64,000 nucleotides of DNA. It comes from Isoetes taiwanensis (taxonomy: Eukaryota; Streptophyta; Lycopodiopsida; Isoetales; Isoetaceae). Of the stretch, positions 842 through 42,569 are shown piece by piece (the stretch's first letter is position 1; every line of letters starts with the position of its first letter). The notes under the pieces are model-generated. The model ran no database searches and was not told where the DNA came from. It saw only the letters and a list, made by a program, of their open reading frames with translations. Position numbers and translations under genes: made by a program. Where the stretch lies: contig JAJEKV010000237.1 in the NCBI GenBank assembly GCA_021234155.1, positions 248,001 to 312,000 of the forward strand, in the 5' to 3' direction.

Positions 842-1930
842 TTGACCATTGATATTGCCTTGTGGAAGTTTGAGACCACGAAGTACAACTGCACTGTTAT
901 TGATGCTCCTGGGCATCGTGATTTCATTAAGAACATGATTACTGGAACCTCACAGGTAAAGTTCACTGATTTGACACTCTTTGTTTCCAACTTCTGATCG
1001 CAGTTCTCTTGCATTTACAGGCTGATTGTGCTATTTTGATTATTGATTCTACAACTGGAGGTTTTGAGGCTGATATTTCTAAGGATGGTCAGACCCGTGA
1101 GCATGCACTCCTTGCATTCACATTGGGAGTGAGGCTGTCAAGGAAGTGTCTTCATATTTGAAGAAAGTTGGGTACAACCCATACAAGATCCCATTTGTTC
1201 CTATTGCAGGGTTTGAGGGAGACAACATGATTGAACGTTCTGCTAACCTTGATTGGTACAAGGGGCCGACGCATTTGGACAGAACCCAAGAGACCTTCTG
1301 ACAAGCCTCAAGCGCCTCCCACTTCAGGACGTTTACAAAATTGGTGGTATTGGAACTGTGCCAGTGGGAAGAGTTGAGACAGGTATTCTGAAGCCTGGTA
1401 TGGTTGTGACTTTTGCGCCTACGGGACTTACCACAGAGGTCAAGTCCGTGGAAATGCATCATGAGTCCCTCCTGGAGGCTCTGCCAGGTGACAATGTTGG
1501 ATTCAATCTGAAGAATGTTGCTGTCAAGGATTTGAAACGTGGTTTTGTTGCATCTGATTCCAAGAATGACCCGGCAAAGGAAGCCGCAAACTTCACTGCT
1601 CAGGTTATTATTATGAATCACCCAGGTCAGATTGGCAGTGGTTATGCGCCAGTCTTGCATTGCCACACTTCTCACATTGCAGTCAAGTTTTCTGAGATTC
1701 TGACCAAGGTAGACAGGCGGTCAGGAAAGGAGATTGAGAAGGAACCCAAGTTTTTGAAGAATGGTGATGCAGGTTTTGTTAAGATGATTCCAACCAAGCC
1801 CATGACTGTGGAAACTTTTGCTGAATATCCTCCATTGGCTAGGTTTGCTGTTCGTGACATGAGGCAGACTGTGGCTGTTGGTGTTATCAAAGCTGTGGAA
1901 AAGAAAGACCCTACTGGAAAGAAGAAGTGA
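842..1930 (+). pseudogene. EF-1alpha (eEF1A) pseudogene, 5'-truncated, intron retained
   Basis: Translation elongation factor 1-alpha delivers aminoacyl-tRNA to the ribosome as a GTPase. Similarity begins within the switch region ([14 protein letters not shown]), then covers the G3 motif DAPGH and continues to the C terminus ([17 protein letters not shown], stop at 1928-1930). The N-terminal part with the P-loop is absent. A 65-base GT-AG intron (956-1020) sits after MITGTSQ, the place I recall for the coding intron of plant EF1A genes, so this arose from genomic DNA and not from a processed mRNA. After TLGVR about 24 residues are missing, including the NKMD nucleotide-specificity motif. A second lesion removes part of the segment after DWYKGPT and shifts the frame; the 3' part from about 1315 is open. 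The C terminus also lacks the usual AKVTKAA stretch. The deletions and missing G domain parts make it non-functional. Confidence 0.93.
956..1020 (+). other. Retained intron of the EF-1alpha pseudogene
   Basis: The sequence starts gtaaag and ends tttacag, and splits the codons for TSQ and ADC exactly. At 65 bases it is short, like the 63-base intron at 36272-36334. Confidence 0.85.
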
Positions 1931-4255
1931 CTAGAGATGGATGGTTTACTTGTGCTGTTCCTTTTAAGTGGCAGGATGCTCATTTCTAGGTGGTTGCAAA
2001 CATGGGTCTTGGACAGGTTTGAGATTACTACACGCGTATGTTTGAGATATAGGTCGCTTTGTTTACAGGTTGCTTTATTTATAAGATTATTACCGGCTTG
2101 GAATTAATCAGTACTTTATGTTTTTCTTATTATTCCTTTTGGTTTGGTGAAGATAGTGATGTTTTTTTTGGTTAAACACGGTTTTAATACTCCTGTATTG
2201 TTATCTATCAGCTTACGTCCAGCTATCCACGTGTTAAGCATGTTTTCTGCGCAATCCCTTGGTATGGCTAATGGGGAAGTAGATTTGCATAGAAGAATTC
2301 TTGAAATAATGGATTGTATTACTAAGGCTTCAATCTTTAATTTAGAAAACCGACCTGTTGTCGACTTCTTTAGCATTATCCTTATCCTTATACTTTTTTA
2401 TTGTTATTTCCAGACCCTCAGATCATGGGAGATTTATAGAATCTCCCAGATCTAAAGGCCAGCATTTTTATAGCCTGAAAACTCTTGCACGGATCAATGG
2501 TCCCACGATTCAAAACAATGGTAGCATTGGTAGAACAGAAAATTGTCCGAGCACGAACAGCTGGTTCTTAAATGGTGAAAATTGCTGGTAGGAACCAAAG
2601 CCTAAGCTTTCGGGATCGCCACTGCTCCGATCTGCGGTGGAATTCGGGCCCAAATCTGCCCTTCTGCATAGGCCCGAGCATTTATCTATCTTAGAAAAAA
2701 AATTGGGTTGGTTGTTTATTACCCAGCGCCTATGTGAATCATGCAAAACTGGTATGCCCAGGATGTAGCAATCTGAGGTAAGCATGCGTTGGGTTATGCT
2801 TTGAATGTCCAAGTTTTACTCTTTGATAAAGCATTCCTTGGTCGTTTCTTCCATGGATTTGCATTCTTTAGCGCCCAAATGTATTTGCATTGATTTTTAC
2901 GTGATTACAAAATTGCTATAAGTTACCAGCATATAAGATTGAAATGTGTGCTAATAACCATGTGATTCTCTTGCAGCTATTGTCTTCTAAATTCTTATTT
3001 GTTTTACATTTGCATTCTATGGCAAGAAATAGGCTCAAAGGCTGGGATTCCGGTGCTTTGGAAATGCCGGTTATAGGGACTGGTATACTAGCTTCTAGGT
3101 TTCTAGCATCCACCAGCTCTAGGCAGCTTGGAGGTTTCTCCATGTGATAAGTAAAATATATTTGAGGGAAAATGCATATGTAAGGTTGGGTTTGGCGTGG
3201 TTTTGTCTCTCTACAAGAGAAAAGGTGAAGCTTCCAATTTTTTTGTGCCATACACATCATTAGTCTGCGAATATGAAATGCCCTTTGTGGATTGAAACTG
3301 GAGAGCTTTAAAAAATTTGTTCGTATAATCATCTCCAATGGGAATATAGTTGTCAGGCATGGATTCAATAGATTCAACGATGAAAGCCGATTGGAACCGC
3401 AAAGGGTTGGATTTGTCAAGTTGGGGTTTGTAAAACTGTTTGTGCTATCAACTTACTAACTTGTCTTTTAGGAATAAGTATAGTCTTAAAACGAAAGCAA
3501 TTGAAGTCGTAGATGTTAGTTGATCGATTATGCGTAAGGAAAGTATGTGCGTGTTAACCTTTTGAGCGGTGATATGATGGTGGATGCTTCCATTCCATAA
3601 TCTTATTTGGGCGTGTGGATTTCCTCCGACAACCCCCTCGTGATTTTAAATATTTGTGTTTATATTGTCGGCATGGCCATAGTGAAAACAATGGCCTTGA
3701 GGAAGTGATCATCAAAATGGCAAGTCACATGTGTGCTATGCTAGAGGAAAGACTGTATTGGTAGAAAATTAGATATGCATTGGCAAAAACTTAGGTAGTT
3801 TCTTATTTGCCTCATATTTCTCATCTTTATTTGCAGATGCTATCTACAAGGTCGTGAACAAGTCCAAAGGTCGTGCAAAATGAGCTCCCCTAAATTAACA
3901 ATGTTATAATTTTTTTTGCACACATATATAATAGTACTTTGACTCCATTAATCTATTAAGAAAATTCTATTCAATCAAACCCACAAATTGTAGGAATATT
4001 TGACCGACTAGCTCGGGCTTAATATCATGTTTTATGTTCTAAGATGCAAGTCTAGGATCAAAGAATGTAGAAAATCTTTGTGATTTTGTAAACTAGATGT
4101 TGCAAAGAACATTGTAGAAGGCATGAAGTTTTCCAAGGTCTGGCCTAAATAATCTTTCTTATATATTTATATTTATTTAGATTCTCAAGTTCAATTGGCC
4201 TTTTCAATAAATTTAATTTTTGGCATGTCTTTTTTCTAATATTGCATGCATTATA
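1931..4255. other. No recognisable gene; likely body of the Helitron that ends at 4283
   Basis: About 2.3 kb without a codable product I recognise. Small open frames at 2144-2455 and 2944-3147 have no family signature. A sequence at 3206-3230 (TCTCTCTAC followed by AGAGAAAAGG) faintly resembles a plant Helitron 5' end, but the base before it is G where A is expected, so I do not call the left boundary. Confidence 0.4.
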
Positions 4256-4354: not shown

Positions 4355-5260
4355 GAACCCCCCTTGGTTATTGGCAGCAAGTGGATTTACAAGTTAAAAA
4401 TAGGTTTGAATGATGAAGAGAAATTCAAGGCATGTTTAATGGCACAAGAATCCACATAAAGGAAGGGAATGGACTATGAAGAGACATTCGCGTTAATAGT
4501 TAAGCTAACTAGCATAAGAATCCTACCAGCATTTACAAATGCTAATAATTTGGAAGTGCATCACATGGATGTAAGCACAGCATTTTTAAATGCTGAGCTT
4601 GATGAGGAAGTCTACATGAAACAAGCATCTGGTCTTGAAGTAGATCAAGAAGGCATGGTATGGAAACTCAAGCGCGTAGTCTATGGATTAAAACAATCCC
4701 TAAGAATGTGGTACAAAAGTATTGATCAATATCTGCAAGAACAAGGATTCAATAAATTTTTAAATGATGGGAACATTTACATATTGAACAGGGGCAGATC
4801 AAGGTTCCAAGTGATCCAGAAGTACTAGAACATTGCAAGCAAATCTTGAAAAACAAGTTCCAAATGACTGATTTAAGACAATCAAGAAAATTTCTGGGAA
4901 TGGAAATGAACAGGGATATGCAAAGCAAAAGGCTGACCATTACTCAGAAAGGGAACATCGAAGGTATGCTTAAAAGATTTCATATGGTAGATTGTGATGT
5001 GTCCAGGACACTTATTGTACAAGGGCTTAAATTATCTTCCAGCATGAGTTCGAAAACAGTGAAAGAGGAGCAACAAATGGAAAAGGTGCCTTATAGGGAG
5101 CTGATAGGATATTTGCTTTTTGTGTCAAATAGCACCATACTTGACATTTCATTTACTGTTAGTCTTCTAAGCAGATTTACAAATAATCCAGGTCACTAAC
5201 ATTGGGCAGCAGCTAAAAGAGTACTCAGAAATCTGCAAAGATGTTTGAATATGGTAACTC
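4355..5260 (+). mobile_element. Ty1/copia retrotransposon remnant (reverse transcriptase region), broken
   Basis: The coding part matches the reverse transcriptase of Ty1/copia: IGSKWIYKLK at the left, then YEETFALIVKLTSIR, then the copia hallmark VSTAFLNAELDEEVYMKQ, then KLKRVVYGLKQSLRMWY. The following part (MTDLRQSRKFLGMEM, then PYRELIGYLLFVSNSTILDISF) is the connection towards the RNase H domain. No gag, protease, integrase or convincing LTR pair is present, so this is an internal fragment. The reading frame is broken several times. It is an old copy. Confidence 0.9.
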
Positions 5261-19325: not shown

Positions 19326-19855
19326 GGATGAGCATTCAACTTGGGCCGTAGGATCTTGGACCCGATCAAGGGTCGAGATCTCACGCAACATGAGCCATAG
19401 GATCTATTACATATAATTCCCAAAGTCATGTGCACCGTAGAATATGTGCCAAGCCACGTGAGCCGTAAGATCCTGGATCGACGATCAGGATCGGATCAAC
19501 CTGAACCGTAGGATCGATTACATATAATTCCCAAAGCCATGTGCACCGTAGGATGTGTCCCAAAGCAACGTGAGCCGTAGGATCTCGGACCGACGATCAG
19601 GATCAAATCAACCTGGACCGTAGGACCGCTTACATATAAGCTACAAACAAACTCCCAAGCCATCTGGGCCGTACGATATGCCCCAAAGCCACGCGGAGTC
19701 AGAGGATCTCGGCCGCGGCGGGGATCGATCAACCTGGATCGTAGGATCGTGTCTATACAGATTATATATAAACTCCCAAGCCATCTGGGCCGTAGGATAC
19801 GTCCCAAAGCCATGTGAACCGTCGGATCTCGAACGGACGGTCGGATAAGCGCGAC
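19326..19855. repeat. Satellite of about 111 bp with CCGTAGGATC core
   Basis: Four or more diverged tandem units. Each contains ACATATAATTCCCAAAGCCA, two or three CCGTAGGATC cores and a GATCAGGATC segment. The spacing of the first anchors is about 111 bases, then it grows through insertions. The array begins directly after the SINE-like head. Confidence 0.8.
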
Positions 19856-23498: not shown

Positions 23499-23762
23499 AA
23501 TAAGGCACTAATTTCATTAAGGATGCTTGTCTTTATCACAGAATTCTTCTTAATATATCATTAGATTGTTGTGTCAGTACTTGTTCTTTCTAAAACTTTT
23601 AGGCAACCCCTTTCTTGAAATTTATAGCAATCGAGGAACATTATACCCCCTTACATTTGTAAGGGGAAGCGTACGATTAGCAAATATTAAGTACTCAGAC
23701 TTTGCATAAGCACACACCCTATGAAGGCTTAGTTTAATGCTGAACAGGATCGCGAAGGCGAT

Positions 23763-25328
23763 TGTGACGTTCCAGGATAATATACGGTATGAATACGTAT
23801 ATTATACTGACACGTCACTAGTACATGTCCACTTAGACGACATGTACGCATCGACCATAAAGGGGTAGTACCCTAGGGTACAACCTTGTGACCCATTATA
23901 TTGCACATGTTAAGGCCACATGTGAATATAATATCCTTTTGCCATGTAGCAATAGCTTATTGACCAAAAAGGGCCCAGCCCTAAATTCGTGGGGATAAAG
24001 GGGCATAAACCCTAAAAGGGAAACCCTTTCAGTTCCCAGCCCCATAAGTCAGATTGGAGCAGCATTGGACGTCTTCTCGCGTGAACAGTAGCAGAGGAAC
24101 CGGAATTCCTTAGTGGCAGCTCGATCCAAGCCAGCAATCTCGAGATTCAGCAGCATGGACGCCTTCAGAGGAGTGGGAGCCAGCCAAGAAGCGGGTTAGT
24201 GGTTGATCCGATAGTTAGATCCGAGTTTTCAGCCCTCATTCCATAGGATTAGTATTCATTCTTAGCTATAGGCGACCCCTATAGCCTAAGAATGATAGAC
24301 ACTAACAAAGGAACCTAACCATGTATGATTAGGTAGGTTAGAATAGATGTATTCTATTATTTCAGTTCTGTTGTGATGATACTGTGACATTCTATGCGCC
24401 ACTCTTGTGTATTGGGAAGGGGGGTAGAGACCCAGAGCCCAAGTAGTTGGATGATCCTAGTTTTAGCCCATTAATTCCCAATTAATGCGGCCTGTGCATA
24501 AGAGCCCGCCTGGCTGTGGGTGGCGGAGCTAGACCGGCTGATAAGGGGGGTCTTGTCTAACCATGGTTGATCCCTCTCAGTGCGTGGCGGCGGCCCGGGG
24601 AGCGTTAGAGCCAGGCCTAATACCAACGCACCGCGTGAGGGCGGGGGTATGGGCTCGACACCTCTTGGGCGATGCGTCGTCTCCTAGGGGTTCAAGTCGT
24701 ATACGAGCAGTGGCTCTCTGGCTCGCCTGTGATTGGCATGAACCTTCTGGAGGGGAGTGATCCCCTCCTGCCTCATCGGGGCTGGGGAGATGCAACCCAG
24801 TAGCAGTAGCCCCTCTGGCTATTCACCCAAGCTACTTGGTCGGGAGCTTCAATACTTTTTAGGTCTATCCGCAAAGTATGCGAGGGGCGGATGGAGTGGA
24901 CTACCCAACGGCCATGTTCCTATGCCGCCCGGATCCATTTGCCATGAATTGCTGCGCATTGCTATCTGGAGACCCCAAGCCGTCAGTCGATCCCCATCAG
25001 TCCGAACTTGGGTAGGATCTTCCCTATGTTATGTTGATGTACTGATGTGTGATGCAGCTACTGTGATATGGTGGACCACCCTTCGAGGTGGGTATGTTTA
25101 TTATCGATTGATGTCATGTGCTCATGTTTTGTTTACGCTTCCGTTGCTAGGTCGATCCCGAGGGAGACGGGATGAATGACACGTCCATTCTTCCCCGTCG
25201 GGTTCTTGGCCACCATCGAGAGCCCGATGTTAGGTGGGCGGCCTCACATCACGCGAGATCTTTGGTTTGAGGGATGATCTCCGGTTTGTATAACATCGGA
25301 GCATTATGATATGATGGGGCCGGCCACA
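23763..25328 (+). repeat. 5' LTR of the chromovirus
   Basis: 1566 bp, TGTGACG...CACA. The first 55 bases form nested inverted repeats: outer GTGACG/CGTCAC, inner ATAATATACG/CGTATATTAT. The TGACG/CGTCA half-sites match the core bound by plant TGA-type bZIP factors, which is a plausible but unproven enhancer. Confidence 0.93.
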
Positions 25329-25587: not shown

Positions 25588-26072
25588 CTCCAAGAGTGCG
25601 CCAGAGCATGTTAGGTCCAGACCTAATGGGTCTCAAGACTCTTAGAGTAATCACCCCATACGAACCCTAGAACGTGGCCTTAGGAACTCCAAATGATAAA
25701 ATAAAAGATGAAATCCCAATCAAAAAGCTCGAAATAGCTAGAACTATATGTTAAAACATCGAAGAACGTTAAGTACAAGTCACTTTTGGAACAATGTCTC
25801 CAAGAGTGCGCCAGAGTATAGTTAGGTCCCGACCTAACCCCCTCCTCGCGCACTCTTAGAGACGTCCCTAAAAGTGACCTCAAAAATTGATCATAACTTA
25901 CTCAAAGGGTAAAGGTAATAATAGAATCTTGCTTAAAATGCTTGAATAAGTGGGAAACGACATGTAAATTGTGTAAATTGGATGTGTTGGAGCAGAGAAG
26001 GCCAACGCCTCCAAGAGTGCGCCAGAGCATAGTTAGGTCCCGACCTAACCCCCTCCTCGCGCACTCTTAGAG
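25588..26072 (+). repeat. Three hairpin units in the retrotransposon leader
   Basis: Units at 25588-25647, 25798-25861 and 26009-26072, spaced 210 and 211 bases. Units 2 and 3 have an outer stem (CTCCAAGAGTGCGC against GCGCACTCTTAGAG, 13 of 14 paired) and an inner perfect stem GTTAGGTC/GACCTAAC with a 2-base loop. Unit 1 is partly decayed on its right arm. Position between primer site and gag is where packaging and dimerisation signals sit in retroelements. Confidence 0.85.
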
Positions 26073-26294
26073 GTGTTCGAAGGAACAGGACCAAACAAGA
26101 CCCTAATTTCATCCAAGATGGGGAGACTTTCGCCAGCAAACCAACCAGACGACTAATTCGACCAAACCCTAAAAATTAGACCCTATAAATTACAGGTCAT
26201 AGGCTCATTTTTTAGGGTTTCTAACGTGATTCCGCGAGCTCCTTCTGTTAGCCGATCTTTTGGCGCCCTGCTCCAAATCGAACGCTGTCATACA

Positions 26295-27190
26295 ATGGCT
26301 AGGACAAAACAGACCGCCCGCAAGCCAAAGAAGGATGATAAGCCTAGCGCCCAAGTACTCGCCGCCGAACAGAAGCTCAAAGATGCTGATGATAAACTGA
26401 AGGCTGACATGGAGAGGCGGCCTAAGTACTATAGAAACTTGGAAAAGAGGCGCAGGAAAGAGGAAAAAGCCAGGAAGAAAGAAGAAAAGGCAAGAAGAAG
26501 AGAAGAAAGGGCCAAGAGAAAGGAGGAGAAGGCGAGAAGGAAAGCGGATGAAGAAGTTGCAGAGGCAGAGGATGATCAATGGCGGGAGCTGAGGACTAAG
26601 AATAGGGAGGAACCCGACCCGAAAGGGAAAAGGGTAATGACTGAAGAACCCCGGCCTAAGAAGAGGAAGACCTCGACCGGCGTAGTCAACCGAGGGCGAA
26701 CAACCTCCATCCTCGTCAGAAGATACTGGTGATGTGGCAGACTTCTTGGAGTCCGTACTTTTCGGAACCGGAGAATCATCACAGAAGCAGGCTAACCCTC
26801 ATCCGGATACAGAAGAACCCCAGGAAGAAGACTCACTTCCAGCTCAGGACCAGGCTGAGACACAGGTTGACCTACCCCCGCCATTGCCCCCACCATTTTC
26901 AGAATGGCAAGAGGCAAAGAAACTAGGTGAGGAGAAAGCAACCACAAAGAAGGCAACCAAGACAGCCAGGGACTCTTACACTCTAGGGCCCGAGAGGAGG
27001 TACAAGAAGGAATTAGCCGACTATACGATATACAAGAAGATGTACGACGAATACGCAGCTTATTACGAAGCACACAGGGTCAAGTTTGCCGAAAGAAAAG
27101 CGGCAGGAATGTATAGAAAAACAGTTGTGCTTCCGGTGCTTCCAGCCGGGGCATAGAACACACAACTGCCCGTTCGTGATGAATGCAGCA
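26295..27190 (+). mobile_element. Gag region of the chromovirus, with histone H3-like amino terminus and zinc knuckle
   Basis: The first ATG after the leader hairpins is at 26295 and opens MARTKQTARK, identical to the first residues of histone H3. It is followed by a Lys/Arg/Glu-rich helical stretch (many KEEKARR-type repeats, probably a coiled coil) with basic patches such as PKKRK that fit nuclear import. A Pro-rich segment and a Tyr-rich helical part follow. The region ends in a CCHC zinc knuckle, [14 protein letters not shown], the RNA-binding motif of retrotransposon Gag. An upstream in-frame Met (26226) exists but lacks the conservation seen at 26295, where the related truncated element also starts. 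The Gag region of this copy is not fully open. Confidence 0.85.
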
Positions 27191-27339
27191 CTTGCGGAAA
27201 TGGGAGGTTGGGAGACCCCGACAGAAGAAGAGGAGGACGAAGGACGCGACTATATCCATGGTGAGTGTCACATCTTTGCCGCCATAGATACAGAAAGCGC
27301 AGAGAGCCAGTATCAAGTAATATCCACGATTGGTAAAAT

Positions 27340-30300
27340 AGCCGCCAAATCTTTTATAGTCCTCATAGACTGTGGCAGTTCCCACAACTTCGCATCACCA
27401 AGGATGGCCGAAATGCTAAAGTTGAAAACAGTGAAGTCTAAGCCCAGGCCAGTGGTGTTAGCTAGCGGAGCCATAAGGCACACGGCCGGCAAGAGGGTGA
27501 ATTTCAATATAGACTTACCTGGTATCAATATTGAAATGGGGGCAGAGATCATGAGCATAGGAAAGTATGACCTCATCATAGGTATGGAATACCTCCACCC
27601 AGCAAAAGCACAAATAGATTGTGGGGAGCGGAAGGTGAAGCTCACGGCGCCAAACGGGAAAATCATAGAAATCTCAGGTAAGCAAGTGACACCTATAATG
27701 CAATGCATGTCAAGTAAGAAATTACTTAGATGCATCAAAAGGGAGCAAGTTGCATATATCTTCAAATTAGAACTTGCCGAGGAAGAGGCACCACAAGATA
27801 AAGAAGATAAACCAGTAAGCAAACTACCCAAGCAGGTAGCCAAGCTAATAGAGGAGTTCCATGACTTGTTCCCCGATGAAATCAAGGAACTTCCGCCATA
27901 TAGGGGAGTGGAGTGCGAAATTGCACTCGAACCAGGCACTAAGCCCACGAGTAAGGCACCATACAGAATGACGGCTCACGAACTATCAGAGTTGAAGAAG
28001 CAATTGCAAGAGCTATTAGACCTAGGGTTCATAAGGCCTAGTGTCTCTCCGTTCGGAGCCCCCATCTTATTCGTCAAAAAGAAAGATGGAAGCTTGAGGA
28101 TGTGTATTGACTATCGTCAATTAAACAAACACACAATCAAGAACAAGTATGCCTTACCCAGAGCAGATGACCTGATGGATCAGTTACAAGGTGCCAAGGT
28201 CTTCTCCAAAATAGACTTAAGGTCTGGATATCATCAAAACAGAATCAAGGAGGAAGATATTCAGAAAACGGCCTTCCGAACAAGATACGGCCACTATGAA
28301 TTCACAGTGATGCCATTTGGCCTATCAAATGCCCCAGCAACGTTCATGAGACTCATGAACGATATCTTTCGGGAATTCTTTGACACATTTGTTATCGTGT
28401 TCTTCGATGACATTTTAGTGTATAGCAAGTCCCTAGAGGAGCATATCCAGCAGTTGAGAAGGGTACTTGAGAAGCTGAGAAGACACCAGCTTTATGCGAA
28501 GTTGTCGAAATGTCATTTCGCCACCGAAAGAGTGGAATACTTGGGGCATGTCATATCAGCAGACGGCATCTCCACCGATCCGGCAAAGATCCAGACAGTG
28601 ATTGAATGGCCAGCACCAAAGAATATACACGAGGTGAGAAGCTTTTTGGGCTTAGCAGGATATTATAGAAAGTTCGTCAAGAACTTTGCTAAGATAGCAG
28701 CACCTTTAACGGACCTCACCAAGGCGGAAAAGATAAAAGACTGGGTGGCACATTGGCAAAAGAAGGCTCAAGCAGGATTCGAGAAGTTGAATGAAGCCTT
28801 AACGACCGCCCCCGTCTTAACATTGCCAGATCCAGAGAAGGACAAACTGGTTGCAACTGATGCTAGCAAGATCGCGACAGGAGCAGTCTGAATGCAAGAG
28901 GAAAGAGTCATAGCATACGATTCACGGAAGATGAACGACGCAGAAACTCGCTACCCGACACATGATCAGGAGCTATTGGCAGTGGTAAGAGCTTTAAAGA
29001 TCTGGAGACACTATCTATTGGGAAGGAAGTTCCAATTAGATACCGACCACCAGAGTCTACAGTACATCTTCACGCAACCATTGTTGAATTTGAGGCAAAG
29101 AAGATGGATGGAGTTCCTGGAAGAGTACGACTTCGAGATTGTGTACAAGCCAGGGAAACTCAATCTGGTTGCAGATGCTCTGTCAAGGCACCCCTTAACA
29201 ACAAGAGTGCATTGCAACGCCATATCAACACTCACCAGTGAGTTTAGCAAGAAAATAGAAGAAACGTTGCCAACGGACAAGGACTTCCAGGAAGTATGGG
29301 CAAGCCTTTCTAAAGAGGCAAGAACGGACAAAGAGAGAGAAGCCTTCAAACATTTTAAGAAGGAAGGAAATCTCTTGTACCATAAAAATAAGTTGTGTGT
29401 GCCAGAATCATCCGGAGTCAGAAGGTTGATTCTCCACAACACCCACAACAGCCCAATAGCCGGCCACGCAGGTTTTACGAAAACCTACTTCAAAATAAGA
29501 AGTAGTTACTATTGGCCAGGCATGAAGAAGCAGATAGCAAGGTACATACGCGAGTGTCAGCTATGTCAGCAAACCAAGGCGGAACAACTACGAATTCCAG
29601 GAGCATTAGAGCCATTGCCAGTACCAAACTCCAAGTGGGAGATAATAAGCATGGACTTCATTATAGGGCTCCCTAGAACCATAAGGGGCAAAGACGCCTT
29701 AATGGTCGTAGTCGACAAGTTGTCGAAAATGGCGCACTTTGTGCCTTGTAGGAGCACAGACACGACTTTAGACACGGCTGTGTTATTCACAAGGGAGATT
29801 TTTAGACTCCATGGGATGCCAAGAGAAATAATCTCTGATAGGGATTCGAAGTTCATGAGTGCTTTCTGGCAGGATCTCTTCAAAAACATCGGAACGAAAT
29901 TATCAATGAGCTCGGCTTATCACCCTCAAACAGATGGCCAACCGGAGCGCACCAATCGGATACTTGAAGATATGTTGCGGAATTATGTCTGGAACAAGCA
30001 ATCAAAGTGGGATGACTTTATCTACTTGGTTGAGTTTGCATACAATAGCACCAAGCAAGAGTCATCCCAAATGTCGCCGTTTATGATCAACTACGGCTAT
30101 CAGTGCTTGACACCAGACACTTGGCACAACCCTGTGTCCAAGGTAGAAGTATCCCAGCAGATGTTAGCCGAGATGCAACAATTGGTTGAGGAGGTACGGG
30201 GATACCTCTTAGCAGCAAGAAGCGGCAAAGAGCATAGCTGATCTAAGACCAACAAGAAGGGAGTTCCAAGTAGGGGACAATGTTTGGCTGAAGATAAAAG

Positions 30301-30690
30301 TCAAACAAGCAAAGCTCCGCATCGGCAATTGCAAGAAGCTTGCTCCAAGGTGGGATGGTCCATTCAAAATTGTCGAAAGAGTGGGCAACCAAGCCTACAA
30401 ATTGGACTTACCAGCACACCTCAAGATCCATAGAGTCTTTCACGAAGTCTCCTAAAGAAACACACTCCTAATCCGGAGGAAGTATTGGAGACACCGAGTT
30501 TCTTCGGAATTAACTGGACGATCAGCTTGAGATTGTCCCGAGTTTCTTCTCGACCGATCCTATAAGAAGACGAGAAGATCTCAATTTCTCCATTACCTTG
30601 TGAAATGGACGACTTACCGGTGGAGGGACGCCACGTGGGTACTACAATCAGATCTTGAGAAGCGGTACCCACAATTCATGGAGCAATGCA
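27340..30690 (+). mobile_element. Pol region: protease, reverse transcriptase, RNase H, integrase, chromodomain-like tail
   Basis: Protease around 27345-27420 with the active-site-like [10 protein letters not shown] (Cys where Ser or Thr is usual). Reverse transcriptase about 27950-28460 with [42 protein letters not shown] and the catalytic FFDDILVYS. RNase H about 28830-29200, with [12 protein letters not shown] and the LVADALSRHP end. Integrase about 29400-30410 with the zinc-binding HHCC module (HNTHNSPIAGHAGF, CQLCQQTK), the DDE core (MDFIIGLP, ISDRDSKF, AYHPQTDGQPERTN) and the GPFKIVERVGNQAYKLDLP module. A chromodomain-like segment near 30575-30680 reads HYLVKWTTYRWRDATWV. Order and motifs place it among plant chromoviruses. 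As a whole this copy is broken. Confidence 0.93.
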
Positions 30691-31420
30691 AGGGTCAGCT
30701 CGTCGGAAGTGGTCTAACTCGAACCGATGGGCGAGTGAGGTAATATAGGAGTCTACTTCCGATGCCACGGAAGTAGTCAGCTTGAGAGAAAAGAGGTCAT
30801 TCAGGAATGCATTTGATAGGAAAAGCACCTCTAGCCCCATATATGTTTTGATAGGAGGAATCTGTCCTTCACGCCCCTTATACGGGAAGGACCCCATCCT
30901 CCACGCTGGGCAACTAAAGGTGTAGGCATGAACGGCATATAGGCATGATAGGGTACTGTCTCCGCGACCACGATAAAAGAATCAGCCTCTTCCTACGCCG
31001 AGAGATTAGCCATGCATTCATGTAGATAGGTGGGGTGGTCACCATATAACCAAAACTTTTATTAATAATTAAATGATACTAATGTAGTGTTGAACCTGCA
31101 GGCCAATAGAACCACAAACAGGCGAGAGGTTGCACTACAAGACCTTGTAGCATATGTAGTGAATAAATGCTACAAGGGGGCGAGAACCTTAAGAACACTT
31201 TTTGTTATGTTCAATCTTGATATTTTAATCTTGATATTTTAACTAATGTTGAATTAAGGCATAAATTAAATGCCTTACCATGTGGTGATTATAAACATTG
31301 CAATTAGAATTTTAAGTATTATCTTATAATAATTCTGTTAATTACATGAACCATCCAAGATTCCTTGTGCAGGTATTTTTCCAAGGTCGGGAGACTCGTG
31401 ATGCTGCGGACAGCATCAAT

Positions 31421-31435
31421 CCAAGGTGGGGAGAA
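31421..31435 (+). promoter_or_regulatory. Polypurine tract
   Basis: AAGGTGGGGAGAA directly before the right LTR; the plus-strand primer of LTR retrotransposons. The minus-strand LTR at 40907-42519 shows the equivalent AGGGAGAA. Confidence 0.85.
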
Positions 31436-32996
31436 TGTGACGTTCCAGGATAATATACGGTATGAATACGTATATTATACTGACACGTCACTAGTACATG
31501 TCCACTTAGACGACATGTACGCATCGACCATAAAGGGGTAGTACCCTAGGGTACAACCTTGTGACCCATTATATTGCACATGTTTAAGGCCACATGTGAA
31601 TATAATATCCTTTTGCCATGTGGCAATAGCTTATTGACCAAAAAGGGCCCAGCCCTAAATTCGTGGGGATAAAGGGGCATAAACCCTAAAAGGGAAACCC
31701 TTTCAGTTCCCAGCCCCATAAGTCGGATTGGAGCAGCATTGGATGTCTTCTCGCGTGAACAGTAGCAGAGGAACCGGAATTCCTTAGTGGCAGCTCGATC
31801 CAAGCCAGCAATCTCGAGATTCAAAGACATGGGCCGCAGGAGGAGTGGGAGCCAGCCAAGAAGCGGGTTAGTGGTTGATCCGATAGTTAGATTCGAGTTT
31901 TTAGCCCTCATTCCATAGGATTAGTATTCATTCTTAGCCATAGGCGACCCCTACAGCCTAAGAATGATAGACACTAACAAAGGAACCTAACCATGTATGA
32001 TTAGGTAGGTTAGAATAGATGTATTCTATTATTTCAGTTCTGTTGTGATGATACTGTGACATTCTATGCGCCACTCTTGTGTATTGGGAAGGGGGGTAGA
32101 GACCCAGAGCCCAAGTAGTTGGATGATCCTAGTTTTAGCCCATTAATTCCCAATTAATGCGGCACGTGCATAAGAGCACACTCGGGCCGTGGGTGTGGAG
32201 CTAGACCTACGGGCTGATAAGGGGGTCTTGTCTAATCACCGGTTGATCCCTCAGTGCGTAGCGTGACCGGGGAACGTTGTGAGCCAGGCCTAATACTGCA
32301 TGAGGGCAGGGTATGGGCTCGACACCTCTTGGGCGATGCGTCGTCTCCTAGGGGTTCAAGTCGTATACGAGCAGTGGCTCTCTGGCTCACCCGTGATTGG
32401 CATGAACCTTCTGGAGGAGAGTGATCCCCCCCGCCTCATCGGGCTGGGGAGATGCAACCAAGATAAAGTAGCCCCTTTGGCTATTCACCCGGCAAGAGCT
32501 ACGGTGGGGCTCCAATACTTTTCAGCCTATCTGCAAAGTATGCACAGGAGGGGCGGATGGAGTGGACTACCCAACGGCCATGTTCCTATGCCAGCCAAAT
32601 CCATTTGCCATGAATTCTGTCTGCATTGCTATCTGGAGACCCCAAGCCGTCAGTCGATCCCCATCAGTCCGAACTTGGGTAGGATCTTCCCTATGTTATG
32701 TTGATGTACTGATGTGTGATGCAGCTACTGTGATATGGTGGACCACCCTTCGAGGTGGGTATGTTTATTATCGATTGATGTCATGTGCTCATGTTTTGTT
32801 TACGCTTCCGTTGCTAGGTCAATCCCGAGGGAGACGGGATGAATGACACGTCCATTCTTCCCCGTCGGGTTCTTGGCCACCATCGAGAGCCCGATGTTAG
32901 GTGGACGGCCTCACATCAGCGGGCAGATGCTGGTTTGAGGGATGATCTCCAGTTTGTATACGATCGGGGCATCGTATATGAGCTGGGGCCGTCACA
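31436..32996 (+). repeat. 3' LTR of the chromovirus
   Basis: 1561 bp, matching the 5' LTR nearly throughout. Its right end contains a hairpin with stem TATACGAT/ATCGTATA, which is decayed in the 5' copy. Confidence 0.93.
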
Positions 32997-38317: not shown

Positions 38318-40126
38318 TGTGACGTCCCCTACTCGTATACGGTGCCCTCACCGTATACAAACAGGAGTTCATCCCCCATACCAGCTCCATGCTAATACAG
38401 GGCCCTCCACATGACACTGCAACCGTGACGGGTTCCAGTGGGAAGAGTGGAAGGGTCATTGCACCCCGTCTCCCTCAGGGCCTACCTAGCTGCGGAAGCG
38501 TAAACATACATGTCAGTAGCACATACATCAATATCATATGGCCATCACGAAGGATGGCCCTCCACATATCTGCATAGACAAAGATCAGCACATCACGTAG
38601 GGAATCCTACCCAAGGCTCAGACTCAAAGGGATGACTGACGGCTTGGGTCTCCAGAGTTCATTGCAGACAGAATTCATGGCAATGGATTTGGCTGGCACA
38701 TGAACATGGCTTAGGGTTGTCCACTCCATCCGCCCCTCCTGCGTACACTTTGCAGATAGGTTGAAGAACTTCGGGGTTGGACCGTAGCCTGCCGGGATCA
38801 TAGCCAAAGGGGCTATAGCCAGGTTACATCTCCCCAGACCCGATGAGGCAGGTAGGGAGGTTTCTCTCCCACCAGATGATCAATGCCATAGCAGGCAGAC
38901 TAGAGGACACCAACTGTCCGTACTCGACTTTAACCCACTTGAAGGGAACTACCACCACGACCAGGTCCCGACCCCTGTGCCAGCACAACCACTGCACACA
39001 GGACCTCGGCTGAAACCCCTGGTGGCACCGTCGCCAGGCACGGCTTCTTATCCCCAACGGGTGTCGAACTCATACTCAGGGTGCACGCAGTCCCTGAGTA
39101 TTAAGCGCTAGTCTGCAGTGCCCTCCGGGTAGACTTTACATCCCGAGAGAGCAACCGCTATGGACACAGCCACCCTTATCAACCGGTCTGACCCCTAAGA
39201 ACACAACACAGGCGGGCTATTGTACGCAGGCCGCAACTACAGTGTGCTAGAGAGGCTACTCTAGGAGCATCAACTACAAGGCTTTAGGTCTCTACCCCCC
39301 TTCCCAATACAAGGAGTTCACAGAGATACATCATCCATGTACATCACAGAAGAACTAAAGAACAAGATCTAATCTATATCATAGAGTTAGGTTCTTTAGT
39401 TAGAATCTGCTATCTAGAGTTCTAGAGGGCTGCTATGGGCAATCTAATAGGCTAAACCTACTGATTCAATGCCTAAAATAGGGTTTAGACTATCTAATTG
39501 GCCAAATACCTGATCCTTGAGGGGCTCCTCCTCGACTGAGCTTCGACCATCCTCACGAAACGCTTTCGAATCTCGAGGAACTAAGGATGTAATTCTCCCA
39601 ATCGAAGCGGGATGCGGTTTTGGCCGTTGAGGCACCAAAAGCAGAAGTTCTGAAAACCCTAAAATCGAAAATTAGGTTAGTTAGGGTTTCCAACCCTATA
39701 TAGACAAGGGGGTGGCTAGGGTTTCCAATTATCCCCTTTTGGCATGTGGGATAATTGGTAATGGGCCCACTTGCCTTTAAGGGCTAGGTGGCCAAATGTG
39801 CCCACATGGAAATGTGTGCACCCAAATGTGCTCACATGGAAATGTGTGCACATTAATGAATGTGTACATTGGAAAATGTGCACCTTAATTGCTCCTATGG
39901 GTATGGCCCACTTGGCATCAAGTGGCCACATGGAAATGTGTGCCCACATTAATGTGTACATTGGAAAATGTGCACATTAATGCTAATGCACATTCTTAGC
40001 AAGTTGCCCCCTAGGGGCTACCCACTTGGCTATACGTTGGCGTACACGTCAATCGGGGTGGCGTGTACGCGTGACGTGGCAGTACAATATACGTCCTGGG
40101 AGCGTATACTGTGCTGGAACGTCACA
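38318..40126 (-). mobile_element. Solo LTR, Ty3/gypsy, same superfamily
   Basis: Read on the minus strand it starts TGTGACGTTCCAGC and ends GACGTCACA, like the chromovirus LTRs. A perfect 5-bp target duplication TTCTC flanks it (38313-38317 and 40127-40131), so this is a complete LTR left by recombination between the two ends of an element. 1809 bp. The internal region is gone. Confidence 0.88.
39780..39995. repeat. Minisatellite within the solo LTR
   Basis: Repeats of CACATGGAAATGTGTGC and TGTACATTGGAAAATGTGCA, unit about 35-50 bases. They probably expanded after or within this LTR family, since the other LTRs here lack them. Confidence 0.7.
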
Positions 40127-40131
40127 TTCTC

Positions 40132-40906
40132 CAACATATTGTATTTCTAAATGATGCTACATCCTAGTGTTCCGAATGTTAATATTAAGCATTGTCATTT
40201 TCTAAATTCCATTTGCAATTCGCCAAATGACCAATCACGATCTTCACAACCATTTTTAATGTCTTTTTTTTATCAGCCTTTACTCAAAGAAGAGTTTGGA
40301 AAGACCTCCATGATGGCCCAATTCAAATAAGATATAACTTCCTTGGATCTTTTCTGCAATAAAATGCAAACTTTTGCTCCAGACCAACCATTCTTTGCAT
40401 CCTATGGGTAGCCTGCAATCTATTTCATACACAAATAGAATTTCAAATTTCTCAAAAAAATTAATGTTTGCTTAATCTGGATACCAAAAATATCTTCACC
40501 TGCTTTAACCCTGATGTGCCTGATTCGTCTAGTACTCCTTAAATAGCATGCAAGAATATCTTTCGTCGTCCTTCCTTTTTGCTTTAATCCAGAGTCCTTC
40601 CTTTTTCCTTTTATCTTTCGTCTGTCCACTGAAGAGAAATTGGGCAAGCAATTTTTGTGTTGCTTAGGGCTCGTGATCTAGTGTGGCTCTCTTTGAAGAC
40701 ATTTTGGAGACCTTGTGAACAGCATGAAGTATTCCATGACACATAGCAAGAATAGGTCACACGGACTATTTTTATTGTCTTTTGGAGGGCAACATTTTCT
40801 CCCACGGCTTTGATGAGTTGCTTGGAAAACTCCTGATCTAAGCCAACAATAATTAGGTGCTTTTCACTTCAGGGCTTCCTTCAAGTTGTATTTCTATTGG
40901 ACAGTA
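40132..40906. other. No recognisable gene
   Basis: Unassigned sequence between two LTRs. Minus-strand frames at 40420-40805 have no signature. Confidence 0.4.
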
Positions 40907-42519
40907 AGTGATGGTTGCACTTGGTTGCCGTATACTTTGTAGGAAATCCCCCATCCAGTCCTTCGATCGCACGGGCCCTCCGTCTATCCTGCACTCCAGG
41001 CTATCCCTAGTGCGGGAAGGGGACACGAAGATGTCTTGCGCGCCCTTCCCCTATGGGCTCCTATAACAGCGGAAGCATAAACAACGTCAAAACTAGCAAC
41101 AACAATACATCAAACTGCCGCAAAGGGTAGCACATCCATACATCCATATATACAATAGAGATAAATATATGCCGTAAAACATGAGAGCTCCTACCCAAGG
41201 CTCGCACTCATGGGGAGATAGACTGACGGCTAGGCCACAAGATAGAACAGACCGAGTCATAACAATGGCGGGGCTGGCTCGAGACAATGGCTAGGGTTGA
41301 CCACTCCATCCGCCCCTCCTGTGCATACTTTGCAGATGGGCTAGACAGGCTCTAGTACGACTCTAGCCTTCCGGATACGTAATCTCATGGTATCACCCAT
41401 CGAGACTGCTCCGGGTTGCATCTCCCTAGTCCGCCGAAGCAGGAAGGGTTCCATCTCCCCTTCCCGAGGTCTAGAGGTTTCACGGGCGGCTAGAGAATCG
41501 TGGCGACACACGATTCTTCCCTGACTTAACCCCTCCAAAACAAGAGCTAGGCCGCCACCTGTAGCTCTTAAGAGGCAGGGCGACACCGTTGCCCCAGGAT
41601 GTGTCGGACCTATGCCCGGCCCACTTGAAGTGACTGGCCATAAGCCTAGCCCGCTATGGGGTCCCCAGTAGCCGCGCTCAGTAGGGCCCTCCCTCCGTCT
41701 CGCCTCTAGCCCCGTTATGTAGTGCTAGCCCCCGTAGCCCGGTGGGTTCCTATGCACAGGCTGCATAATAATAGGAACTAAAGGGTCTAAACTAGGAGCA
41801 TTACTAAGTAATGGCTACTAGGTCTCTACCCCCTTCCCAATACAAGAGGAGCAAACATGATCAACCAACCAACATCACATATCTACATAACATGATCATA
41901 ATGAGAAGAACATCTAAACCTAATCATATACATCTAACTTACAGTTAGGGTTCATTGATTAGGGTTCAAGATCTATACTGAGGTGTCTAGGAAGGCTCTA
42001 CTAGAGACACGAAATGCTAACTCATCTAGAATCCTAACTTCCAGATGATCTACACAGAACTCTAATCCAAATACCTGCTCCTGAGGAACTCCCTCCTACT
42101 CCTGGCGTCTCTATGGTCTTCGAGGTGGTCGAAGTAGCTCCCACTCCTGTTGACGCGCACATGCTCTGGGGGCTGCTGTACTAGGCTATGCCACAGCAGA
42201 CGGTTCTCGAAACGAAGCTTCAAACGCGAAAAGAGTTCCCAGACTGTTGGAGCCAGAAAAATGGCCTAGGGTTAGGGTTTGGCCATTTATAGGTTAGGGT
42301 CGATGTCATCTGCCACATGGCTCCAATAGGGTGGTCCCATGTGGTGGGTGCCCAATAGGTTAAGGCCATGTGTAAAATGGTCTTAACCTAAAGTTGGCTA
42401 TCTATGAATAACTTCGTCATGTGCTAATCTATGATATACAAGGCTATGGAGATAGACTTGTATAGTGACGGACCTAGAAATATATGTATTTATGGCGTAT
42501 ATTTTCCTAGAACGTCACA
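40907..42519 (-). mobile_element. 3' LTR of a truncated Ty3/gypsy element, minus strand
   Basis: On the minus strand it begins TGTGACGTTCTAGG at 42519 and is preceded by a polypurine-like AGGGAGAA (42520-42530), so it is a 3' LTR with a few dozen bases of internal sequence on its right. It is the same family as the LTR at 20258-21516 but retains the middle part that copy lacks. The flanks do not match each other (CAGTA left, TTCTC right), so it is not a solo LTR. The element body is lost. Broken copy. Confidence 0.8.
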
Positions 42520-42569
42520 TTCTCCCTAAAGGATAATGATGTCCTCAGCATTACGCTAAGGTGACAAAC

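Follow-up and report, generated by a model that had tools for sequence, protein, structure and literature searches.

The 64,000-nucleotide stretch of Isoetes taiwanensis DNA analysed here (the window) contains an LTR element in which positions 26295–26324 (ATGGCTAGGACAAAACAGACCGCCCGCAAG) encode MARTKQTARK, a methionine followed by residues 1–9 of histone H3. The motif lies inside the element on the same strand as pol, and its ATG at 26295, which begins MARTKQTARKPKKDDK, is located 973 bases past the end of the 5' LTR. The sequence-only reading placed the motif at the first ATG after the leader; this holds for the motif's own frame, which is open from at least 26226, but the leader contains ATGs in other frames. 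The element is a Ty3/gypsy chromovirus, as indicated by its LTRs, the pol domains downstream on the strand of the motif, an SH3-like domain, and a chromodomain, the last of which bears out the class proposed earlier. The window copy retains the LTRs, the PR-RT-RH-IN order, and the chromodomain, and is broken by stops and frameshifts. Its features are listed below, where H3L denotes the histone-like protein described in the next section.

23757–25322, + strand: 5' LTR, direct repeat of 31430–32991
25588–26072, + strand: leader with three copies of a repeat beginning CTCCAAGAGTGCGCCAGAG, spaced by about 211 nt (exact matches)
26295–26324, + strand: H3 tail tip, Met and H3 residues 1–9 (MARTKQTARK; direct reading and family conservation)
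26295–26687, + strand: H3L ORF residues 1–131, comprising the tail and the start of the charged linker (tblastn with L049 H3L, 93% identity)
26689–27083, + strand: further part of the H3L linker in a different frame (tblastn, residues 136–270 at 26689–27093, 76% identity)
27084–27088, + strand: deletion junction, with the H3L fold, ORF2, and Gag capsid gone (blastn against other copies)
27089–28891, + strand: end of Gag, protease RVP_2, reverse transcriptase, and start of RNase H (Pfam RVT_1 5.5e-38, RVP_2 2.3e-10)
28892–30241, + strand: RNase H and integrase (H2C2, rve; Pfam RT_RNaseH 6.2e-27, Integrase_H2C2 1.3e-20, rve 2.4e-10)
30213–30455, + strand: integrase C-terminal SH3-like domain (Pfam SH3_Tf2-1 3.6e-20)
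30531–30743, + strand: chromodomain (Pfam Chromo PF00385, E=2.3e-9)
31430–32991, + strand: 3' LTR, direct repeat of 23757–25322

The two LTRs differ by 45 transitions and 21 transversions over 1539 compared sites (K2P 0.044). The leader repeats start at 25588, 25798, and 26009, giving three exact matches versus 0.01 expected. The similarity to H3L shifts frame at about position 26688 (tblastn), so that the histone-like ORF of this copy is broken. In blastn comparisons, window positions 26281–27083 correspond to positions 117–929 of the copy L049, and positions 27089–27350 to 4734–5001; the picture obtained with copies L040 and L043 is similar. The deletion spans 3.4–3.8 kb, depending on the copy compared, and the edge of its junction is uncertain by about 10 bases, as the first blastn piece with L043 extends to 27096. 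Because the deletion removed the histone fold, ORF2, and the capsid, and joined the front of H3L to the end of Gag, the window ORF resembles a Gag protein with an H3 tail. A CCHC-like knuckle at the end of Gag is weak (E=0.019, below the Pfam cut-off). The chromodomain shares a frame with the SH3-like domain, and two stops separate them in the window copy.

Elsewhere in the window, pieces resembling the LTR of this element at 38712–38760, 40086–40132, 41292–41340, and 42479–42525 suggest further LTR remains. The pair 38712/41292 is, as judged by eye, in reverse orientation; the other two pieces are 62% alike in forward orientation. Direct repeats that are 81–88% alike and 111–121 nt apart form a short minisatellite-like array at 19386–19812.

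The H3-like protein, ORF2 and Gag in fuller copies

Relatives of the element were sought using its reverse transcriptase; 81 of 38,944 first-look candidates were scored, and 20 regions were sampled together with 5 kb of upstream sequence. The tail motif is complete (10/10 residues) in six of the 20 regions, where it is positioned 4.5–5 kb upstream of the protease region, as opposed to 1 kb in the window. Of the other 14 regions, eight contain part of H3L, and in six no H3L was found at E<=1e-5. The copies L040, L041, and L049 each possess an intact 393-residue ORF that starts with MARTKQTARK, contains an H3 fold at its end, and is closed by a stop. The order of genes in the fuller copies is H3L, ORF2, true Gag, protease, and reverse transcriptase.

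The H3L protein has about 390 residues and can be divided into H3 residues 1–9, a long linker rich in Lys, Arg, and Glu, and an H3 histone fold. The L049 protein matches the Pfam Histone family (PF00125, E=4.4e-19), and a phmmer search against PDB sequences aligns H3L with residues 42–132 of H3 and H3.3 chains (E=5.1e-18; E=1.7e-27 for the fold of the L008 subfamily). The tail appears in the phmmer alignment as a second piece of 3.5 bits, which has no weight by itself. The complete N-terminal tail of H3 (ARTKQTARKS through the K14–K36 region) is not present in H3L, which keeps only residues 1–9 and has about 290 linker residues in place of H3 residues 10–40. Because of this replacement, H3L is an H3 variant or H3-like protein and not a canonical H3. 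The motif, which had been interpreted as a mimic peptide on Gag, is almost certainly the N terminus of this element-encoded histone H3 variant, to judge from the gene structure of the fuller copies. A search of the H3L fold region against a set of 5.8 billion proteins returned 157 candidates, none of which was a relative at E<=0.001. Ahead of the fold, at residues of about 230–300 (for example in L049), there is a conserved stretch, Y.KEL..Y..Y.KM..EY..YYE.....EGGRPT, recognisable in the subfamilies read. It matches no Pfam family and may form a partner-binding domain.

The tail ORF had also been assigned as Gag, which is wrong, since Pfam searches did not find the Retrotrans_gag capsid domain in the tail ORF of the window or of L049, and the L049 Gag is a separate ORF downstream containing this domain (PF03732, E=1.1e-16). 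In L008 and L004, which represent two more distant subfamilies, H3L is followed at the expected distance by Gag and protease and thus belongs to the same kind of element. Many copies contain ORF2 between H3L and Gag. In L041, ORF2 begins about 720 bases past the H3L stop and has 506 residues counted from the chosen ATG; it occupies positions of about 1901–3419 of the L041 reverse complement and 1931–3423 of L049. TATA-like stretches were noticed by eye upstream of both H3L and ORF2. The ORF2 piece searched has neither a Pfam match nor a relative in the PDB (best E=0.93), and none of the 3691 candidates from the set of 5.8 billion proteins is related to it. In other copies, such as L041, a 19-mer of the CTCCAAGAGTGCGCCAGAG leader repeat recurs in the stretch from H3L to ORF2. 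H3L and ORF2 may each have their own promoter, or the leader may have been duplicated when H3 was captured.

The genome searched comprises 1,658,258,908 bases in 1110 contigs. The back-translated pattern of MARTKQTA with CGN as the codon of Arg2 has 1201 exact matches, and the reversed pattern, used as a control, has none; the match is not due to chance, which the earlier reading had judged very unlikely. Allowing either type of Arg codon and requiring the codon of Lys9 results in 1051 matches (none for the reversed pattern), among them that of the window and a number of host H3 genes. A resemblance to host genes led us to read four of the matches with an AGN codon for Arg2: three contain host H3 (L101, L103, and L104; MARTKQTARKSTGGKAP), and L102 encodes MARTKQTARK followed by a stop. 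Eight of the 1201 matches were read with their flanks, of which seven match H3L past the tail (tblastn) and the eighth, L005, contains broken pieces of the fold. The same 30-mer as in L102 occurs three times on contig C217. A search for the H3L fold yielded 8038 loose first-look candidates, of which 150 were scored, all with E values of 1.3e-41 or better. Many H3L copies are broken, including that of the window. In a phylogenetic tree, a branch (98/95) separates 22 element folds from two H3 and two CENH3 rows. This grouping fits a single event, and the family probably arose from one capture of H3 by a chromovirus, followed by growth to a very high copy number.

The residues of the fold were compared with the corresponding positions of H3. 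Seven of the eight positions of the H3–H3' four-helix bundle are kept, with Leu126, Ile130, Cys110, His113, Asp123, Arg116, and Ala114 invariant in 22/22 folds and Arg129 replaced in 22/22. Five of nine DNA-contact positions are well kept: Arg83 in 23/23, Arg69 and Arg72 in 22/23, and Lys115 and Thr118 in 22/22. Arg49 is retained in 17/23 folds, position 53 is His in 23/23, Arg63 is replaced by Pro in 21/23, and Lys56 is conserved in one of 23 and replaced by Arg in 17. In addition, Lys79 is Asp in 20/23 folds. The fold thus looks usable in part, and the entry of H3L into nucleosomes is not certain because of the changes at positions 53, 56, 63, 79, and 129. The element folds align without gaps to H3 through loop 1, and the insertion typical of CENH3, in which loop 1 of the targeting domain is longer than that of H3, was not found there.

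Conservation of the tail and variation at residue 9

Twenty copies were picked by their fold and not by their tail; they contain open frames of 383–489 residues and range from 98% down to 71% identity. Eighteen of them have an in-frame tail, with all ten residues matching in ten copies, nine in six, and eight in two. One of the two remaining copies has its tail out of frame (7/10), and the other lacks the 5' end. The H3 tail tip is real and located at the very N terminus, as the sequence-only reading had proposed. It is also shared by most copies of the family, so that the refuting condition set there, other copies starting without the motif, does not apply. For measurements of selection, the 18 copies were combined with L040, L041, and L049, which had been found by their tails, into a set of 21 ORFs, from which L076, L077, and broken copies were left out. 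In tail codons 2–10 of this set, pN is 0.059, pS is 0.582, and w is 0.054, a value biased low by the choice of ORFs with in-frame tails. The corresponding w is 0.40 for codons 11–40, 0.24 for the linker, and 0.087 for the fold; all w values are pairwise counts made without a tree, and the synonymous sites are saturated. Nine subfamily representatives yield similar values of w, 0.041 for the tail, 0.38 for the next 30 codons, 0.25 for the linker, and 0.075 for the fold, and all nine-codon windows as conserved as the tail are situated in the fold. The PR-RT region has a w of 0.05, similar to those of the H3L tail and fold, in 19 of the 30 loci L009–L038, after removal of loci that differed in length, contained stops, or lacked the FFDD motif. 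Synonymous differences are about as frequent in the tail as elsewhere in the ORF, which argues that the peptide, rather than the RNA, is the target of selection. As judged from these substitution patterns, both the H3L tail and the histone core are under purifying selection.

Residue 9 was tallied in 100 of the 1201 tail matches with CGN at Arg2, on contigs up to C838. It is Lys in 73 places, which may include a few host H3 genes, Val in 13, Met in five, Ile in four, Leu in three, and Asn in one. The remaining place is L005, which has Ser-Glu after an apparent one-base insertion that shifts the frame. Thus 25 of the 27 non-Lys9 places listed have Val, Met, Ile, or Leu, and none has Arg, Gln, or Thr, the single-step neighbours of Lys; a hydrophobic residue 9 together with intact residues 1–8 occurs in 25 of the 100 places. 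L007 is a Val9 copy, and 20 further non-Lys9 places (12 Val, four Ile, three Leu, and one Asn) were read, none of which continues like a host H3. L096 reads MARTKQTARN, possibly owing to a one-base slip. Of the 18 fold-picked copies, 15 have Lys at residue 9, two have Met, and one has Val; further tail changes in this set affect T3, K4, Q5, and R8. Across the genome, 80 exact matches encode Met9, in several codon backgrounds.

The residues that follow position 9 pair Lys9 forms with aliphatic sister forms, namely K-VSND with M-VSND or VRND, K-VMPP with V-VMPE, and K-VVPD with I-VVPD. These sister contexts suggest that position 9 switched, in one direction or the other, separately in different lineages. 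The aliphatic copies are partly related to each other, and therefore the 25 of 27 places do not represent 25 independent events. The H3K9M mutant dominantly blocks H3K9 methylation and traps the methyltransferase Clr4, and norleucine likewise binds G9a (PMC5030085). In the aliphatic-9 copies of H3L, as in the H3K9M oncohistones, position 9 is hydrophobic and the tail tip is otherwise intact (PMC5030085, PMC6562757). However, the oncohistones are mutants of host genes that were engineered or arose in disease, whereas H3L sequences belong to a mobile element, and in H3L the tail past residue 9 is replaced. Among the residues that stand in place of Lys9 in H3L, Val is the most frequent, ahead of Met, whereas the traps described in the accessible parts of these papers concern Met and norleucine (PMC5030085, PMC6562757). 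The Met9 form alone resembles the published K9M methyltransferase trap.

Possible roles of H3L and their significance

We propose that H3L is incorporated into nucleosomes by pairing with the H4 of the host, possibly on the element or close to it. Of the H3 tail, chromatin enzymes would then encounter the K4/K9 tip but not the K14–K36 region, and H3L might thereby interfere with the silencing of the element by H3K9 methylation. Forms with Lys9 could provide a decoy substrate, or an address that the element makes for its own chromodomain, and forms with Met, Val, Ile, or Leu at this position could act as non-methylatable histones or as pseudosubstrates that hold H3K9 methyltransferases. H3K9 methylation is a main silencing system of plant elements, and interference with it is thus the likeliest gain for the element. 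We lean slightly towards the joint reading of an element-encoded H3 variant that interferes with H3K9 silencing, with a confidence somewhat reduced because DNA-contact positions are well kept in only five of nine cases. Interference taken as a claim of its own is put forward tentatively. It is somewhat unlikely that the stolen H3 is a weapon. In this reading, H3L would be deposited in chromatin, and several lineages would have replaced Lys9, each on its own, by Met, Val, Ile, or Leu with ARTKQTAR unchanged, creating natural oncohistone-type traps for the H3K9 methyltransferases by which the element is silenced.

Other explanations account for parts of the data. A short linear mimic of the H3 tail, with which the capsid protein would begin, would agree with the window copy, in which the sequence of H3L runs straight into that of the Gag nucleocapsid and protease; it was rejected since other copies show a separate histone ORF. 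The stop after the complete fold in L040, L041, and L049 and the separate Gag ORF have already refuted such mimicry for the fuller copies, which makes it extremely improbable as a general explanation. It is very improbable that a captured H3 gene is copied with the element as a functionless, drifting passenger: mobile elements do capture pieces of genes (PMC7264820), and possible drift was suggested by the authors of a study of a fungal hAT transposon with an H3-like gene (PMC3538342), but w is 0.04–0.09 in the tail and fold of H3L, against 0.24–0.40 elsewhere in the ORF and a similar 0.05 in PR-RT.

Self-addressing and the packaging of cDNA are serious rivals. In the former, H3L deposited on element-rich chromatin would be methylated at Lys9 and read by the chromodomain of the element, directing insertion into safe, marked sites. 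The tail and chromodomain are present in one element, 73 of the 100 listed places have Lys9, and H3K9me2/3 is the described target of a fungal LTR element (PMC3350952). We nevertheless consider self-addressing rather unlikely, because lineages with Val, Met, Ile, or Leu at residue 9 would not be readable by a chromodomain, and the chromodomain, with its putative binding, is known from the window copy only, where it lies behind two stops. In the case of packaging, H3L and its charged linker would coat the cDNA or enter the virus-like particle and aid nuclear import, consistent with the location of H3L 5' of Gag, the retention of some DNA-contact residues, and the abundance of Lys, Arg, and Glu in the linker. 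This role is improbable, as it leaves the retention of exactly H3 residues 1–8 unexplained, and no part of H3L is less constrained than the linker. It is less probable still that H3L derives from or resembles CENH3 and guides the element to centromeres. Plant CENH3 likewise begins with MARTK, and the H3L spellings EIRHFQ and LLIP resemble Arabidopsis CENH3, but the alignment of H3L with H3 runs ungapped through loop 1, its best PDB matches are H3.3 and H3, and the tree does not group the element folds with CENH3, albeit with two CENH3 rows only and long branches. A CENH3 origin is therefore disfavoured by these comparisons, although not closed.

The nearest precedent we found for this H3 variant is the H3-like protein of a hAT-type DNA transposon of the fungus Pyrenophora tritici-repentis (PMC3538342). 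Among the best-ranked matches in the open PMC literature, there was neither a core histone gene in an LTR retrotransposon nor a closer case of a retrotransposon histone or of H3 mimicry. As in I. taiwanensis, the H3-like gene of the fungus is carried and multiplied by a mobile element and adjoins an ORF without an assigned function, comparable to ORF2, and the protein has insertions in its tail and a fold that fully matches neither H3 nor CenH3 (PMC3538342). The fungal DNA transposon has 26 very similar H3-like genes, for which its authors consider drift, whereas the lycophyte LTR chromovirus has 1201 tail matches, several diverged subfamilies, and a tail and fold that appear to be under strong purifying selection (PMC3538342). 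The Ty3/gypsy chromoviruses of non-seed plants (Tcn1/Galahad and CHD_I) also combine gag-pol with a chromodomain and include lycophytes in their host group, but a histone ORF is not mentioned in the accessible part of their description (PMC3350952). Conserved additional ORFs occur in other Gypsy elements of plants (PMC7264820), including one for an AlkB-type demethylase in orchids (PMC9289625). According to the search listing, the word "histone" does not occur in the review of such ORFs (PMC7264820), and, in contrast to the elements covered in these two sources, the additional ORF described here encodes a core histone and is located 5' of gag (PMC7264820, PMC9289625).

If a histone is under selection in an element with more than 1000 tail matches, a genomic parasite would be altering not just the DNA around the nucleosome but the nucleosome itself. 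The presence of either Lys or an aliphatic residue at position 9 may offer a ready-made experiment on the natural evolution of K9M-type poisoning. Antibodies against the H3 N-terminus may detect the element protein in Isoetes taiwanensis, and care is needed in repeat masking and histone annotation of lycophyte genomes.
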